Both the position numbers and the translations under genes were made by a program. Shown here one piece after another: positions 5,058 through 32,457 of a DNA stretch of 33,317 bases. The notes below the pieces were generated by a model. It saw only the letters and a list, made by a program, of their open reading frames with translations. It made no database searches and was not told the DNA's origin. The stretch covers positions 1-33,317 of IMG/VR virus record IMGVR_UViG_3300032291_004252. One strand, written 5' to 3'. This DNA is from a virus. Each line of letters begins with the position of its first letter. Position 1 is the first letter of the stretch.

Positions 5058-6851
<1,794 letters not shown>

Positions 6852-27568: not shown

Positions 27569-27936
27569 AATCCCCAGGAAAAAATATGAATATTAAACGT
27601 CGTAAAAAAAGTGATTTTGATGAAAAAGAGCTTTTTATAGACATAATGACAACATTAGATGAATGTTGGATAAGAACAAATTATGTCACAAGTAAAATCA
27701 AATTGAATACAACTGAGTATGAAGAACCCTTCTATTTAATTGTTGAAAACTTGGTATTTCTTCATTATGGGGAAAAACTTGGAATGATTATATTGTGGTG
27801 GGTATTTGAAAGACTCGATGAAAAAGGTAAATTATTACCTCTAGAATTTATCGAAGATGAAGATACATCTACTAAATTATACCTAAAAACCTCCGAAGAC
27901 CTTTGGGATTTTGTAAATAAATTAATGAACAGATGA
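27565..27936 (+). CDS. Hypothetical protein, 123 aa
   Basis: No family is recognised in this 123-residue protein. The N-terminus is lysine-rich (MKSPGKNMNIKRRKKSDFDEKE), the middle has a hydrophobic core (PFYLIVENLVFLHYGEKLGMIILWWVFERLD), and the end is acidic. The core looks like a soluble helical bundle with aromatic residues; the hydrophobic run is too interrupted for a clear membrane helix. It overlaps both neighbours by 4 bases. A second in-frame ATG at 27586 is possible, but the upstream one keeps ATGA coupling. Confidence 0.6.
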   Translation: MKSPGKNMNIKRRKKSDFDEKELFIDIMTTLDECWIRTNYVTSKIKLNTTEYEEPFYLIVENLVFLHYGEKLGMIILWWVFERLDEKGKLLPLEFIEDEDTSTKLYLKTSEDLWDFVNKLMNR

Positions 27937-28241
27937 TAGTTAGAAATTGTAAAGTTTGTAAACAACAAATTAACCCTAAACGATTAGAAATCCTTCCAAA
28001 CACCTATACCTGTGTTAACTGCTCAGATTCCTCCCGTAAAGGAGCAATTACAGTAATGAAAGGTGAAGGAGACCATACCTGGATTGAAACCATCCAAATA
28101 GACGACCCAGAAACATATAACCGCTATGCTGAGGCCGAAATCAAATTTAGAAAATCTATATCAAATTCCTCTAAAGCAGAATTGTTGGATGATGAAGATG
28201 ATGAAGTTGGAAGTTTTAATGAAATCGATTTAGAAGACTAA
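27933..28241 (+). CDS. DksA/TraR-type zinc-finger protein
   Basis: A 102-residue protein with a C4 zinc finger near the N-terminus: Cys6, Cys9 and, 18 residues later, Cys27 and Cys30 (CKVCKQQINPKRLEILPNTY...CVNC). The INPKRLEILP segment is the DksA/TraR C4 signature. Unlike DksA the zinc finger is N-terminal and no coiled-coil arm precedes it; the C-terminal half is acidic (LLDDEDDE). DksA-like proteins bind RNA polymerase and alter initiation, and phages carry short versions, so control of host or phage transcription is plausible. A plain structural zinc ribbon is the alternative. It overlaps both neighbours. Confidence 0.72.
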   Translation: MIVRNCKVCKQQINPKRLEILPNTYTCVNCSDSSRKGAITVMKGEGDHTWIETIQIDDPETYNRYAEAEIKFRKSISNSSKAELLDDEDDEVGSFNEIDLED

Positions 28242-28885
28242 TGCCAAAAGCTAAGCCACTAGGAAAGGAATTAATTTTAGCTGCTATGGCTAAAACCCAA
28301 TCAAATAAAGCAGCAGCACGTTATTTGAATTGTTCTTATATTCATTATAAAATGTGGGCTAAAAGGTATGAAGCAACTGAACCTGGTTATCCTAATTTAT
28401 TTGAGCAACATAAAAACCAATGTGGTAAAGGCATTCCTAAATTCCTTAGTAATGGCAATCCAAGAAAAGACTTTGCATTACTTGATTTAATTGAAGGTAG
28501 AATTGATCCATCTTCATTTAATCCAAATAAAATCAAATATAGATTATTACAAGAGGGTTATATGAAGGAGGAATGTTATTCCTGTGGGTTTCATGAACAT
28601 CGTTTATTGGATTATAAAATGCCTCTTTTAATGCATTTCAAAGATGGAAACAAACAACATTATCGTCTTGAAAATCTAGAAATGCTTTGTTACAATTGTT
28701 ATTTCCTTTCAGTAGGTGATATATTTACCAATAAACAATTAGAAGGTTTAGAAGAACATTTAATTAAAAATGAATCTAAAGTTGATTGGGAAGTAGATGA
28801 TTACACCCAACAACGTTTAATAGAATTAGGTTTATACGACCCTAAACCAGTTGATGATGGTAGTGAATTTATATCAAGACTATGA
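28241..28885 (+). CDS. HTH protein with degenerate HNH zinc domain
   Basis: A 214-residue protein. Residues 18-45 (KTQSNKAAARYLNCSYIHYKMW) fit a Fis-type helix-turn-helix, and residues 112-154 form a zinc domain with Cys112-x2-Cys115, His132, an Asn in the RLEN segment (Asn145), and Cys150-x2-Cys153. This is the HNH/endonuclease VII-like layout, but the closing histidine is Tyr154 (CYNCY), and His132 is preceded by Met instead of the usual His/Asp. The nuclease site therefore looks incomplete, and the protein may only bind DNA. A free-standing HNH homing endonuclease derived to a regulator is the likely origin. It starts at TAATG with the DksA-like gene and ends with ATGA into the next gene. 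Confidence 0.7.
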   Translation: MPKAKPLGKELILAAMAKTQSNKAAARYLNCSYIHYKMWAKRYEATEPGYPNLFEQHKNQCGKGIPKFLSNGNPRKDFALLDLIEGRIDPSSFNPNKIKYRLLQEGYMKEECYSCGFHEHRLLDYKMPLLMHFKDGNKQHYRLENLEMLCYNCYFLSVGDIFTNKQLEGLEEHLIKNESKVDWEVDDYTQQRLIELGLYDPKPVDDGSEFISRL

Positions 28886-29037
28886 AAAAGAAAAAACACG
28901 ATAAACTAGTTAAGGATTACGATAAACAAAAAGAACATCATCTTGAAAAACTTGCCACAAAGATGTTGGAAAATGATGAAAAACTCATTAAATTAAAAGA
29001 AAAAAATATAAATACTGACTTTTTAAAATTGTTCTAA
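28882..29037 (+). CDS. Small charged protein, 51 aa
   Basis: A 51-residue ORF starting at an ATG that overlaps the HTH/HNH stop (ATGA) and ending one base before the next ATG. It is almost entirely Lys, Glu, Asp and Leu and should be one long helix, possibly a coiled coil (HHLEKLATKMLENDEKLIKL). Its function is unknown. Coupling at both ends argues that it is translated. Confidence 0.6.
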   Translation: MKKKKHDKLVKDYDKQKEHHLEKLATKMLENDEKLIKLKEKNINTDFLKLF

Positions 29038-29038
29038 A

Positions 29039-29389
29039 ATGGCCACTGATATTACTGTAGATAATGTAGAAGAATTTGCTAAAATGGTTGACAAACAAGA
29101 TTTTAGATTGTCTAAAGCTATTGTTGATCAAATATTAAGTAATTTGACTACTAGTAAAAAACACATTCATGTTTTATCTATAAATTGTATTTCTGAAGAT
29201 TCAATTTACGATATTACTGTAGATAGAAAACATTTCGCTGAAACCCTCGAAGAACACCTACCAGTTTATATTCGTGAAGAGTATTATGAAGATTGTCGTA
29301 AAATAGCAGATGCTATTCAACAATTAAAGCAAAAAACCATTAGCGAAATTATCACAAAAGTTAGTAAATCCAAATCAGACGATAAATAA
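29039..29389 (+). CDS. Hypothetical protein, 116 aa
   Basis: I do not recognise a family for this 116-residue protein. It has a helix near the N-terminus (VEEFAKMVDKQDF), a mixed middle with one Cys (LSINCISEDSIYDITVD), and a helical C-terminus ending in Lys/Ser-rich residues. Soluble, acidic and without motifs. It starts one base after the preceding stop and is followed by a 38-base spacer, so it is the end of a co-translated string. Confidence 0.6.
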   Translation: MATDITVDNVEEFAKMVDKQDFRLSKAIVDQILSNLTTSKKHIHVLSINCISEDSIYDITVDRKHFAETLEEHLPVYIREEYYEDCRKIADAIQQLKQKTISEIITKVSKSKSDDK

Positions 29390-29427
29390 AACCACCATAT
29401 TTATGAGAGTATTTTAACTCTATAAAA
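29390..29427 (+). promoter_or_regulatory. Spacer with small hairpin before the basic 48-aa gene
   Basis: AGAGT at 29406-29410 pairs with ACTCT at 29417-29421 over a six-base loop, followed by TATAAAAATG. The stem is short and no T-run follows, so it is not a terminator of standard type; a regulatory hairpin just ahead of the start codon is possible, as is a promoter box in this AT-rich stretch. Confidence 0.25.
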
Positions 29428-29574
29428 ATGGCTGCAAAAACAAAAACACAATCAACATCTTCTTTTTTAAAAAAATCAAGAAAAAAACGTCCTGGGGTTC
29501 ACGCTAAAACAAAAATATCAAAAGCAAAAAACGGTTCAAATTATAAAAAACTGTACGTAGGACAAGGTAATTAA
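29428..29574 (+). CDS. Small very basic protein, 48 aa, RPGVHAKTK motif
   Basis: A 48-residue lysine-rich protein with KKRPGVHAKTK at about 20-30 and NYKKLYVGQG near the end. A short protein with this RPGVHAKTK...YKK..GQG pattern recurs in large tailed phages in my memory, but no function is known to me. The high charge and lack of hydrophobic core suggest binding to nucleic acid or to the capsid interior. The start is preceded by a small hairpin and AAAAATG. Confidence 0.68.
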   Translation: MAAKTKTQSTSSFLKKSRKKRPGVHAKTKISKAKNGSNYKKLYVGQGN

Positions 29575-29590
29575 TAAATAAATATAAGTT

Positions 29591-29722
29591 ATGAGTAAAA
29601 CAAGCAATAAGCAAAAAATCGAAACCCTTGAAATGTGGATTCGTTCAACAAAATTTTCCAAATCCTCTAAACCAGTTAAAAAAACAAACAACTGGAAGAA
29701 AACTTCAGGATACGAAGATTAA
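29591..29722 (+). CDS. Small basic protein, 43 aa
   Basis: A 43-residue ORF (MSKTSNKQKIETLEMWIRST, then a Lys/Ser-rich half ending in SGYED) with the AAGTTATG start context. It is followed at once by the first copy of the hairpin repeat. No family is recognised. It is short, so the coding claim rests mainly on the start context and on the tight packing with the previous gene (16-base gap). Confidence 0.5.
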   Translation: MSKTSNKQKIETLEMWIRSTKFSKSSKPVKKTNNWKKTSGYED

Positions 29723-29735
29723 AAGAAATCTGCAT

Positions 29736-29782
29736 AAAAACTTGGAGGGGCGAAAGCCCCTTCGTAGATTTACAAGGTAAGA
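29736..29782 (+). repeat. 47-bp GNRA-hairpin repeat, copy 1
   Basis: The 47-base block from AAAAACTTGG to GGTAAGA occurs again at 31237-31283 with two differences. It contains an 8-bp stem, GGAGGGGC at 29744-29751 and GCCCCTTC at 29756-29763, closed by a GAAA (GNRA-type) tetraloop; one pair is G-T here and G-C in copy 2. CTTG and CAAG at its ends can form an outer helix. No T-run follows, so it is not a standard terminator. Downstream lies AAGGTTATG of the SWIM gene, 30 bases from the stem. Role unknown: RNA processing, mRNA protection, small RNA or translation control. Confidence 0.8.
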
Positions 29783-29792
29783 AATTAAGGTT

Positions 29793-30254
29793 ATGGCATT
29801 ATTAGAAATTACAACACTTAACAAATACGGTAATCCTAGAAAACGTATTATGTTTAATCCAACAACTCAACTCACAGTTAAAAATCCATCAGTGTATGGA
29901 AAATTATTTGGAGTTCGTGTTTTTAAGTATGATTATGAACATGCTTATATGGCTCCAGCAATATTTACTTGTCCAACAAACGGAAAAAAATATATTATTC
30001 CTGCTTGGATTGAAGTTCATCCTGAAACAACATTAGCTGATATCAATTGGATTAAACCTGAGATTAAAATTACTGAACCTAAAAAAACCGAATGGATTTT
30101 CGAATCATCTTCAGGTGATGGATTTTATGCAGTTCGTTACAATTCATTAGGAGTATTAGCATGTAACTGTATGGGTTATTACAGATCAAAAGAACGTAAA
30201 TGTAAACACGTAAAACAAGTAGAAAATGATCTTGGAAAAACAGAAAACAAATAA
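29793..30254 (+). CDS. SWIM zinc-finger protein
   Basis: A 153-residue protein whose C-terminal third carries a SWIM finger: Cys124-x-Cys126, then Cys137-x-His139 (LACNCMGYYRSKERKCKHV), the CxCxnCxH pattern. SWIM domains bind DNA or protein and occur in transposases, plant and phage proteins. The N-terminal two-thirds is a beta-rich domain with KYGNPRKRIMF and KYDYEHAYMAPAIFTCPTNGKKYIIP, which I do not recognise. It starts in the AAGGTTATG context directly downstream of the hairpin repeat, and overlaps the next gene by 29 bases. A nucleic-acid-binding role is likely, but the target is unknown. Confidence 0.72.
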   Translation: MALLEITTLNKYGNPRKRIMFNPTTQLTVKNPSVYGKLFGVRVFKYDYEHAYMAPAIFTCPTNGKKYIIPAWIEVHPETTLADINWIKPEIKITEPKKTEWIFESSSGDGFYAVRYNSLGVLACNCMGYYRSKERKCKHVKQVENDLGKTENK

Positions 30255-30441
30255 AATCACTATTGATTTAACTGGTCCTCAAGGTAATGCTTTTGTATTA
30301 TTAGGAATTGCTCGAGATTTATGTCTCAAAACAAAAACAGATTGGGATACAGTTCATGCAGAAATGACTAGTGGTGATTATGAAAATCTAGTTCAAACGT
30401 TAGATAAATATTTTGGTGAAATTATAATAATGTACAAATGA
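30226..30441 (+). CDS. Hypothetical protein, 71 aa
   Basis: This is unrecognised. The first ten residues lie inside the upstream gene's end in another frame, and the core NKITIDLTGPQGNAFVLLGIARDLC is helical with a Gly-rich turn, followed by an acidic C-terminal half ending in IIIMYK. The start at 30226 is the only ATG before the core, giving a 29-base overlap with the SWIM gene. It overlaps the next gene by 4 bases, so it is coupled on both sides. Confidence 0.6.
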   Translation: MILEKQKTNKITIDLTGPQGNAFVLLGIARDLCLKTKTDWDTVHAEMTSGDYENLVQTLDKYFGEIIIMYK

Positions 30442-30713
30442 AAAGAGGAAGACCAGTAAAAGAAGCAGTTGAAGCAAGACGTAAATTTACAAAAGAAGTA
30501 ATTCATCCTGATGGAATGAAAACTGTATTTACCTATGATTTAGATAAAAGTATTGCACCTATTGGGTTTGAATACACTTATCCTAAAGGTTATAGAACGT
30601 TTGATGAAATCAACGAAGAATTACCTATAACAAAACGTAAATATTGGAATACCGCAAATGAAGACGGCGGTTACGTTTCTTACGGAAGAGCTAAACAATT
30701 AGGAATCATTTAA
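30438..30713 (+). CDS. Hypothetical protein, 91 aa
   Basis: No family is recognised in this 91-residue basic protein (MKRGRPVKEAVEARRKFTKEV...). The N-terminal GRPVKEA segment recalls an AT-hook-like GRP core, though only one is present. The middle has beta strands and a Pro-Lys-Gly turn, and the C-terminus has WNTANEDGGYVSYGRAKQLGI, possibly a small DNA-binding fold. It is coupled by ATGA to the previous gene. Confidence 0.55.
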   Translation: MKRGRPVKEAVEARRKFTKEVIHPDGMKTVFTYDLDKSIAPIGFEYTYPKGYRTFDEINEELPITKRKYWNTANEDGGYVSYGRAKQLGII

Positions 30714-30739
30714 TATTTATCAACATAAAACAAACAAAA

Positions 30740-31120
30740 ATGACCTTAAAATTCCCAGCAAATACCTCTAGAGTAGGTACAATTAAAGATTCTATCTATG
30801 GTATAAAAAATACTATTGATTATCTTGAACAAGAAGGAAAAATTGAATATAAATCATTAGGAGCATCTGCTGATGGAAAAGTCACTAATGAATACCGAAT
30901 TTTCCCAACAGACGGAACACCTCCTTTTACAATATATGATTATAGATTTGGATTTGACCCAAGTGATGAAGACCACTATGAAGAAGAATACAACTTTAGT
31001 ATCGGAGGCATAGGCCCAGAATCAGAAGAATCAGCAAAACAACTTGGTTTTGAGGTAATATCTGATTTAGATGAAGAATTTATTCGCCAAATGAAATACA
31101 AAGCAGGTATTATTAAATAA
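30740..31120 (+). CDS. Hypothetical protein, 126 aa
   Basis: I do not recognise a family for this 126-residue acidic protein. It begins with a helical SRVGTIKDSIYGIKNTIDYLEQEGKI segment, then a beta-rich middle (YRIFPTDGTPPFTIYDYRFGF) and an acidic C-terminus. No membrane segment, signal or cofactor motif is seen. It follows a 26-base AT-rich spacer and starts at AAAAATG. The layout is that of a small globular phage protein with unknown role. Confidence 0.6.
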   Translation: MTLKFPANTSRVGTIKDSIYGIKNTIDYLEQEGKIEYKSLGASADGKVTNEYRIFPTDGTPPFTIYDYRFGFDPSDEDHYEEEYNFSIGGIGPESEESAKQLGFEVISDLDEEFIRQMKYKAGIIK

Positions 31121-31126
31121 ATAAAA

Positions 31127-31294
31127 ATGAAAAAGCTGGAGAAAATAGAACTAACAATACATGAGTGGAAAGATGCTCTAAAGGTTCCTCCTCCTCATCG
31201 AAACAAAAAGAAATATTTTCGCAAAGAAAAATATAAAAAAACTTGGAGGGGCGAAAGCCCCTCCGTACATTTACAAGGTAAGATTAATAATTAA
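31127..31294 (+). CDS. Small basic protein whose end reads through repeat copy 2
   Basis: A 55-residue ORF starting at AAAATG, 6 bases after the previous stop. Residues 1-35 look like a phage small basic protein (ELTIHEWKDALKVPPPHRNK, then KKKYFRKEKYKK). From about residue 39 the frame runs through the hairpin repeat, giving TWRGESPSVHLQGKINN before a stop. Copy 1 of the repeat lies outside any recognised gene, so these last residues may be an accidental reading of an RNA element rather than a selected protein end. Confidence 0.5.
   Translation: MKKLEKIELTIHEWKDALKVPPPHRNKKKYFRKEKYKKTWRGESPSVHLQGKINN
31237..31283 (+). repeat. 47-bp GNRA-hairpin repeat, copy 2
   Basis: Second copy of the element at 29736-29782, identical at 45 of 47 positions by eye. 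The stem here is perfect: GGAGGGGC at 31245-31252 with GCCCCTCC at 31257-31264, GAAA loop at 31253-31256. Both copies are preceded 14 bases earlier by AAAGAAA and are followed, after AATTAA, by an AAGGTTATG start codon (here the gene at 31305). The T-to-C change between copies keeps base pairing (G-T to G-C), which argues for a selected RNA stem. Its upstream and downstream position relative to genes is the same in both copies. Confidence 0.8.
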
Positions 31295-31304
31295 AATCAA
31301 GGTT

Positions 31305-31523
31305 ATGAATAATGAAATTTATGAAATGGTAATGGATCAATCGAGAAAAATAGGATCATTACTCGGAACAGTAGGTGCTCTCCTCAAATACAATACACAA
31401 GGGTTAGCTGATTATGAATTCAAGCAATTAGCCATAACCTACATTGAAGTATCAAGTATTCAAAGTGATATTGATAGGGTAAAAGAAGTAGCAAAACAAC
31501 GTGGAATAAATTTGGATTCCTAA
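31305..31523 (+). CDS. Hypothetical protein, 72 aa
   Basis: This is unrecognised. It is helical and acidic, with MNNEIYEMVMDQSRKIGSL, GALLKYNTQGLADYEFKQL and IDRVKEVAKQRGI. A bundle of three helices is likely. It starts in the AAGGTTATG context 41 bases after the stem of repeat copy 2, in the same way as the SWIM gene after copy 1. Confidence 0.6.
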   Translation: MNNEIYEMVMDQSRKIGSLLGTVGALLKYNTQGLADYEFKQLAITYIEVSSIQSDIDRVKEVAKQRGINLDS

Positions 31524-31561
31524 ATCCCCATTCATACATTCATAGAGCAAAAATAAAAGTT

Positions 31562-31654
31562 ATGTTATATTTGATATTAGGAATAGTTGGATTAGTACTT
31601 CATTTAGTAGCATTAGTATTAATAATTGACACATTTATAAATTATAGAAAATAA
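31562..31654 (+). CDS. Very small membrane protein, 30 aa
   Basis: A 30-residue ORF starting in the AAGTTATG context and consisting of one long hydrophobic run (MLYLILGIVGLVLHLVALVL, then IIDTFINYRK), which should span a membrane once with a short positive tail inside. The consistent start context and its position in the operon make it a likely gene; small single-pass proteins of this size are known in phages, for example as host-membrane or lysis-related factors, but no such role is shown here. Confidence 0.5.
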   Translation: MLYLILGIVGLVLHLVALVLIIDTFINYRK

Positions 31655-31659
31655 AGGTT

Positions 31660-31911
31660 ATGGTAAAAGAAAAAACGTTAAGTGTAGATTTAGATCTTGG
31701 AATTAAGAATTATTGGAGAAAAGCAAATGAAGCTCTAGAGACCAAAAACATGGAACTAGCTGATGACCTATTAGCTTATTGTCTTGTCATTTTAGCCACA
31801 GCCACGATGAATGATATGGATGAAAATGAAAAACTAGGTGGTGTAAGATTGGGTCTTTGGAAAGAACGAGTTTGGATGGCAATTGAAAATAATGGATTAT
31901 TACCCGAATAA
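31660..31911 (+). CDS. Hypothetical protein, 83 aa
   Basis: No family is recognised in this 83-residue helical acidic protein (LSVDLDLGIKNYWRKANEA, ADDLLAYCLVILATATMN, VRLGLWKERVWMAIENNGLLPE). It starts at AAAGGTTATG five bases after the membrane ORF and is followed by one base before the next ATG. No membrane helix is certain; the LAYCLVILATATM run is hydrophobic but short. Confidence 0.58.
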   Translation: MVKEKTLSVDLDLGIKNYWRKANEALETKNMELADDLLAYCLVILATATMNDMDENEKLGGVRLGLWKERVWMAIENNGLLPE

Positions 31912-31912
31912 T

Positions 31913-32047
31913 ATGACACCGGAAGTAAAAGAGCGTTTATATAGAGAATTAGTAAGTATACTAATAGCTGTTGAAAATAGAAATATTGGGGAAGCTCAAT
32001 CCTCTCTCGAAGATTTAGTAAATAAAGTAGCATATAATAGAGTTTAA
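31913..32047 (+). CDS. Small acidic protein, 44 aa
   Basis: A 44-residue ORF of helical composition (TPEVKERLYRELVSILIAVE, then NIGEAQSSLEDLVNKVAYNRV), beginning one base after the previous stop. It could be a small two-helix bundle. Its support is the tight packing with both neighbours and an uninterrupted frame; no motif is recognised. Confidence 0.48.
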   Translation: MTPEVKERLYRELVSILIAVENRNIGEAQSSLEDLVNKVAYNRV

Positions 32048-32050
32048 ATT

Positions 32051-32230
32051 ATGACTAACGAGGAATTTATAGAAGAATTGTTATATAAAGCTCATGCAAA
32101 CGGATTTTTGGATGAATTATGGCGAAGAGCAAAAGCATATGAATTTAAGTACCCTCAAATGAAATATTACGAGCGAGTAGAAAAAGCTTATAATAAATGT
32201 AAACAGGTTAGGGAAAAAATTACTAATTAA
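32051..32230 (+). CDS. Hypothetical protein, 59 aa
   Basis: A 59-residue ORF with charged helical sequence (TNEEFIEELLYKAHANGFLDE, RRAKAYEFKYPQMKYYERV), 3 bases downstream of the previous stop, in the context AAATTATG. It is followed by a spacer with a possible terminator. There is no recognisable family. Confidence 0.55.
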   Translation: MTNEEFIEELLYKAHANGFLDELWRRAKAYEFKYPQMKYYERVEKAYNKCKQVREKITN

Positions 32231-32260
32231 AGCTTGCTTGACCAACCCGCGCTTTTTAAT
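32226..32260 (+). terminator. Possible weak terminator before 32275
   Basis: ATTAAAGC at 32226-32233 pairs with GCTTTTTAAT at 32251-32260, allowing a two-base bulge, with a 17-base loop. A T-run is part of the 3' arm. The loop is long, so this is only a weak candidate; it fits the one spacer (32231-32274) in the right-hand array without a gene. Confidence 0.3.
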
Positions 32261-32274
32261 CCGTATATACAAAA

Positions 32275-32457
32275 ATGATGAAAATAGAATTCTACACACA
32301 CCGACTTTGGGATAAAGACTTTAAGCAGTTATCGCTATGGCCTACAATATATTTTACTAGAAACCCACATGCAGCCCTAACTATTATTAGCATTAACGTT
32401 TTTGTGTGGGATATAGGATTACTTATAACAAAAAAACCAAATGGGATCTACAAATAA
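32275..32457 (+). CDS. Hypothetical protein, 60 aa
   Basis: A 60-residue ORF with two adjacent ATGs (32275 and 32278), either of which may be used. The C-terminal half is hydrophobic (AALTIISINVFVWDIGLLIT) and may cross or touch a membrane, while the N-terminal half is aromatic and charged (MMKIEFYTHRLWDKDFKQL). It overlaps the following gene by 17 bases. The function is unknown. Confidence 0.48.
   Translation: MMKIEFYTHRLWDKDFKQLSLWPTIYFTRNPHAALTIISINVFVWDIGLLITKKPNGIYK

Follow-up and report, generated by a model that had tools for sequence, protein, structure and literature searches.

Does a hairpin that is repeated in front of two phage genes act as an RNA element of those genes, or does it serve something else? 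The question was raised by two copies of a 47-bp element in the window, by which is meant the whole stretch of 33,317 nucleotides that was analysed (IMG/VR virus record IMGVR_UViG_3300032291_004252). The window has a GC content of 31% and encodes a T4-type DNA polymerase, whose top matches, at 29-35% identity, were polymerases of cyanophages and T4-like phages, as well as glycosyltransferases, thymidylate synthase and a phage-encoded chaperonin GroEL (positions 5238-6851; phrog_5725, E 7e-157). No DNA similarity to the element region was found in named phages, and a search of named phages with the short element alone matched only ordinary enterobacterial phage hairpins. For the 153-aa product of the gene downstream of copy 1, no Pfam family was found; its C-terminal CxC...CxH pattern is SWIM-like by eye only.

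Direct comparison of the two copies (Table 1) confirmed a preliminary description, which had reported two differences, one of them in the stem and preserving the pairing. The differences are at 29762 (T/C) and 29767 (G/C). The first turns the G.U pair 29745/29762 of copy 1 into a G-C pair in copy 2, and the second falls on an N position of the -7 box. The 8-bp stem with its GAAA loop, the AAAGAAA upstream, the CTTG and CAAG ends and the AAGGTTATG gene starts 30-41 nt downstream were all present in both copies as first described. Both copies folded far better than shuffled sequences (z of -4.2 and -5.6 for the 26-nt core), and they were essentially the sole strong GC hairpins within the window. 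On the minus strand the stem is followed by AAGTTTTT. A terminator on this strand was considered and rejected, since A.C departures, which are G.U on the minus strand, were not enriched in the hairpins of sister promoters. A search of Rfam gave nothing at gathering scores, and relaxing the cut-off added only matches below the threshold. Inspection and the absent Rfam match provided no positive evidence for a self-cleaving ribozyme or a riboswitch.

Table 1. Positions of the duplicated element, its predicted promoter parts and the adjacent genes in the window.
Feature	Position	Strand	Basis or remark
Element copy 1 (promoter core and flanks)	29736..29782	+	Direct sequence comparison of the copies
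A-rich AAAGAAA upstream of promoter 1	29722..29728	+	Position of the conserved phage-promoter AA
-33 box TTGG, promoter 1	29742..29745	+	Fixed-spacing motif in phage and Bacteroidota genomes; consensus PMC6847099
Stem-loop in promoter 1 spacer	29744..29763	+	8 bp, GAAA loop; fold and covariation
-7 box TAGATTTA, promoter 1	29765..29772	+	Consensus TAnnTTTG, PMC6847099
Gene downstream of promoter 1 (putatively served by it)	29793..30254	+	153 aa
Element copy 2	31237..31283	+	Direct sequence comparison of the copies
A-rich AAAGAAA upstream of promoter 2	31223..31229	+	Position of the conserved phage-promoter AA
-33 box TTGG, promoter 2	31243..31246	+	Kept in orthologue
Stem-loop in promoter 2 spacer	31245..31264	+	8 bp, all Watson-Crick, GAAA loop
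-7 box TACATTTA, promoter 2	31266..31273	+	Kept in orthologue; consensus PMC6847099
Gene downstream of promoter 2 (putatively served by it)	31305..31523	+	72 aa

The part conserved around the stem was TTGG-N17-CGTANATTTA, which matches the Bacteroidota sigma-A promoter. The primary sigma consensus of Bacteroidota pairs a -33 TTTG with a -7 TAnnTTTG, and transcription begins 4-5 nt further downstream (PMC6847099). Both copies have the TTG core of the -33 box, with C and not T as first base, like many phage copies. In both -7 boxes T-12, A-11, T-8, T-7 and T-6 fit the consensus. Their last base is A where the consensus has G, a replacement seen in 87% of the unbiased phage set, and the published host set (PMC6847099) rarely has the G found at -10 in copy 1. 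The fixed spacing between the boxes is common to phage and host promoters, and the conserved AA of phage promoters is found 17-18 nt 5' of the -33 box. On sequence grounds, both copies are phage promoters of the Bacteroidota primary-sigma type. We infer that transcription starts at about 29777 and 31278, 4-5 nt after the -7 box, giving leaders of 16 and 27 nt to the ATG. Since the stem lies upstream of these starts, downstream mRNA from either promoter would not carry it.

The preliminary description had proposed a stand-alone cis RNA for the downstream gene, with a role in processing, stability or translation. The stem and loop are RNA-like and both copies lie shortly 5' of a gene start, as such an element would, but the predicted transcription starts are 3' of the stem, the conserved part is the promoter, the stem is absent from most sister promoters and from the orthologue of copy 2, and Rfam offered no match at gathering scores. 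This explanation is very improbable.

The promoter type would point to a Bacteroidota host for the window phage. A contig of 6757 bases from a Flavobacteriaceae MAG (L313) carried a phage-type promoter near-identical to that of a viral locus (L095). It probably belongs to a phage and was binned with the Flavobacteriaceae genome, which gives a hint of the host group.

Scans were performed with the flanks fixed and the stem letters free and, in a second flank scan, with loop and length loosened as well; the scan counts are samples, and mismatch thresholds, not a tree, decided which matches were distinct. The scan with free stem letters found 61 phage contigs, and the looser one gave at least 120 matches. 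Most matches listed from both flank scans were without a stem, and their common feature was CTTGG-N17-CGTANATTTA. With a wholly unspecified spacer at least 120 matches were found in phage contigs, and 15 with a spacer one base longer; the one-base-longer patterns served as spacing controls. The exact spacing was observed in 26 of 26 motif-bearing phage contigs, at 1-10 copies per contig and on one strand per contig, and a spacing of one additional base in none of 26 contigs, a list partly different from the former. When YTTGG-N15-TTCGTATATTTRC was searched in one genome per species of 84,980 prokaryote species, 78 of 80 among the matches listed were Bacteroidota by name. In many of the Bacteroidota chromosomal matches listed, an ATG followed a few tens of bases later.

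Hairpin-free phage spacers contained a loose TACCYRARA motif, which was not seen in host promoters of the same pattern. Together with the upstream AA, this motif is possibly contacted by a phage factor. A few Bacteroidota chromosomal promoters (five loci) had inverted repeats of 15-18 bp centred on the -33 box.

Near-identical phages and orthologues of the copy-1 gene argue for the promoter, as the boxes stayed constant while the spacer was replaced. Contig 3300032219_003129 was 98.8% identical to the window over 27936-31134 and 92% identical over 31127-32443. Its promoter 2 orthologue has the same boxes and flanks around the spacer AAACCCGAAGAATGATT, which forms no hairpin. Among promoter-bearing relatives of the copy-1 gene, the window and its near twin carried the hairpin with the stem AGGGGC, L537 with AGGAGC and L474 with AGCCCC. 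The hairpin was absent from L541, L542 and L544, and also from L540, in which the -7 box is altered. The comparison indicates that the boxes are the constant part and that the hairpin is optional, its pairing being kept through different letters when it is present. A 55-aa ORF (31127-31294) spans promoter 2 and its hairpin, and the orthologue in 3300032219_003129 ends at a TGA inside the spacer. The spacer swap thereby changed the C-terminus of the protein as well.

Among 107 distinct phage promoters, for which GAAA was required and the stem letters were left free, the five free pairs were all Watson-Crick in 28 (1.5 expected by arm swapping), and only two promoters had four of five pairs Watson-Crick. 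The perfect GAAA-loop spacers had about a dozen different stems, including AGGGGC, AGCCCC, AGACCC, AGGCCC, AGGAGC and AAGGGC and the AT-rich AAGTTT, ATTATT, ATAATT, AAAATT and ATATTC. In a loop-free scan three G/C letters were fixed per arm, with the pairing and a loop of 3-6 bases left free. All 27 distinct GC-stem matches paired perfectly and had a loop of 4 nt, GAAA in 26 and GAAT in one; one match with a GTAA loop was seen in the 26-contig motif set. GAAA occupied the loop position in 7 of 139 unbiased spacers (p 7e-23). No such stem was present, in this register, in any of the 115 host promoters that fit the pattern. Only one of 29 spacer stems contained a G.U pair, and departures were too few for a G.U/A.C strand test. 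At two loci the spacer hairpin lay in a different register and had a loop of 3 nt (GGCTCCC-TGA-GGGAGCC and GGCTGCC-ATA-GGCAGCC).

Judging by this compensation, the spacer hairpin is under selection and no accident. The further copies and the covariation that were looked for were both found in other phages. The view of the element as a selected RNA therefore stood in part: the stem is selected, and other phages have it a short way upstream of gene starts in many compensatory versions. The assignment to the downstream gene did not stand, as the conserved surroundings are those of a promoter that would start 3' of the stem, and an intercistronic RNA role would be possible only within read-through RNA from the upstream gene. 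The promoter kind has already been described, and the spacer hairpin is apparently new; no reports of Bacteroidota phage promoters with spacer hairpins were found in the open-licence literature.

The dyads could also lack a function: template switching at quasi-palindromes could have produced them, and recombination between promoter copies could have spread them. Such an origin agrees with stems that are either perfect or absent, with the recurrence of one spacer at different places and with the comparison of G001 and the window, in which the whole spacer is swapped and the flanks are unchanged. It is hardly probable, since GC stems with GAAA in phages of 31% GC, about a dozen stems and no decayed forms argue for selection, and a choice of loop is not expected from template switching.

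The explanation we favour, with somewhat better than even confidence, combines a host-type promoter with a hairpin that would act on the read-through RNA of the upstream gene, as a 3' end or terminator. Judging by conservation, each copy is a Bacteroidota-type promoter for the host primary RNA polymerase (-33 TTGG, -7 TAnATTTA, fixed spacing), with a predicted start about 4 nt past the -7 box and a leader of 16-27 nt to the ATG. The perfect GAAA-loop hairpin nested in the spacer would lie outside the transcript started there. It would be carried by read-through RNA from the upstream gene, would fold upon leaving the polymerase and, once folded, may constitute a weak terminator or a stable 3' end, and the promoter within the same 33 bp would start the next transcript. 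The whole element would thus form a compact module for stopping and restarting transcription between phage genes that lie close together.

A role in RNA is suggested by the GNRA (GAAA) loop on the sense (+) strand, where a GC-rich stem-loop, as in terminators, is found. Stretches matching AGGGGC-GAAA-GCCCCT were found in enterobacterial phages, one of them an annotated terminator. The U-run of a terminator is absent: as first described, no T-run is found on the + strand, and the bases after the spacer stem are GTANATTTA (GTAGATTTA and GTACATTTA in the two copies). The placement of the stems is only suggestive at p values of 0.005-0.07, because the sequences are correlated and several tests were made: no stem was inside the upstream reading frame (0/38, versus 38/273 hairpin-free promoters, p 0.007), but inclusion of copy 2 of the window changed this to 1/39 (p 0.065), and a same-strand stop codon was found at most 250 nt upstream of 73 of 74 hairpin promoters versus 246 of 273 (p 0.014). 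Copy 2 lies inside the 55-aa ORF, and a ribosome would therefore open its hairpin.

Sister promoters provided further indications. Longer hairpins centred on the -33 box were present in 25 of 139 (0.8 expected) and tolerated G.U and not A.C (25 versus 9 stems, 0.8 and 0.5 expected). They were followed by more T (p 0.005, again suggestive), as overlapping terminators would be. At seven loci, among others, hairpins of 9-13 bp overlapped the -33 box of related phage promoters and often had T-runs behind them, which sets them apart as a class from the spacer hairpins. With sense-strand G.U tolerated, the 9-13 bp hairpins over the -33 box are predicted terminators fused with promoters.

The spacer stems, however, are almost purely Watson-Crick, and RNA stems usually drift through G.U. 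The spacer dyad could instead work as DNA, a hairpin or cruciform extruded under negative supercoiling switching or tuning the promoter. The variable stem letters, the strict Watson-Crick pairing and the perfect-or-absent distribution (28 perfect, 2 with one defect) are as a DNA fold demands, and the stem fills the spacer between the boxes exactly. Strong hairpins were rare outside promoters in 277 kb of sequence from such phages, which means that the stem may serve the promoter itself. The single strands of the two copies also fold as DNA (-7.1 and -10.6 kcal/mol), GCGAAAGC-type DNA hairpins are unusually stable, and hairpin promoters occur in phage N4. Extrusion would, however, collapse the distance between the -33 and -7 boxes, which is fixed in all these promoters. 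The stem is missing from most promoters of these phages and from one orthologous promoter, AT-only stems exist and would be weak, and the placement relative to reading frames and stop codons is left unexplained. Action as DNA is possible but unlikely. The corresponding promoter class, in which a sequence-variable GAAA hairpin would fill a host-sigma spacer and exert control at the DNA level by being supercoiling-sensitive or recognised as a hairpin, is slightly more doubtful still. The putative action on read-through RNA is more likely than action as DNA.

The strict dyad symmetry without G.U, located between the -33 and -7 boxes as is typical of operators, could also mark where a dimeric regulator encoded by the phage binds, each phage having a half-site of its own. 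The same stem was often found with differing flanks within a genome: AGGGGC three times in G001 (once with a GAAT loop), AGCCCC three times each in G016 and G018, and AGGCCC twice in G037. But G019, G036 and G043 carry both AGCCCC and AGACCC, and G010 carries AGGAGC and AAGGGC, with both arms compensated, and the half-sites of one regulator need not show several fully compensated stems per genome. The asymmetric GAAA centre is moreover near-invariant though the half-sites vary. An operator is improbable.

The TTGG/-7 signature is a ready promoter marker for uncultured Bacteroidota phages, which could be used for operon mapping and as an indirect suggestion of the host. The spacer hairpin poses a testable choice between a transcript end and start fused in 33 bp and a DNA structure in a sigma-dependent promoter. 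Either outcome would be helpful for understanding and engineering expression in Bacteroidota, and the DNA-level alternative, if true, would amount to a naturally occurring hairpin promoter serving a host sigma factor.

The element resembles the Bacteroidota sigma-ABfr promoter (PMC6847099) in having the two boxes in the same order and at the same distance from the gene start. In contrast to that promoter, the phage -7 box ends in TTTA and not TTTG, the -33 box is often CTTGG, and the spacer holds a hairpin, which 0/115 host promoters do in the same register. Intrinsic terminators with a C(GAAA)G loop in enterobacterial phages share AGGGGC-GAAA-GCCCCT, with an annotated terminator in Klebsiella phage May; here, the -7 box follows the stem in place of a U-run. 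The virion-polymerase promoters of phage N4 likewise place a hairpin with a purine loop, similar in size, within a phage promoter. There, a single-subunit phage polymerase reads the promoter and recognises the hairpin sequence itself, whereas the hairpins described here vary in sequence and are flanked by two host sigma boxes. Another dyad between promoter boxes is found in MerR-type spacer operators. MerR promoters have an overlong spacer, whereas here the spacing is equal in hairpin and hairpin-free promoters.
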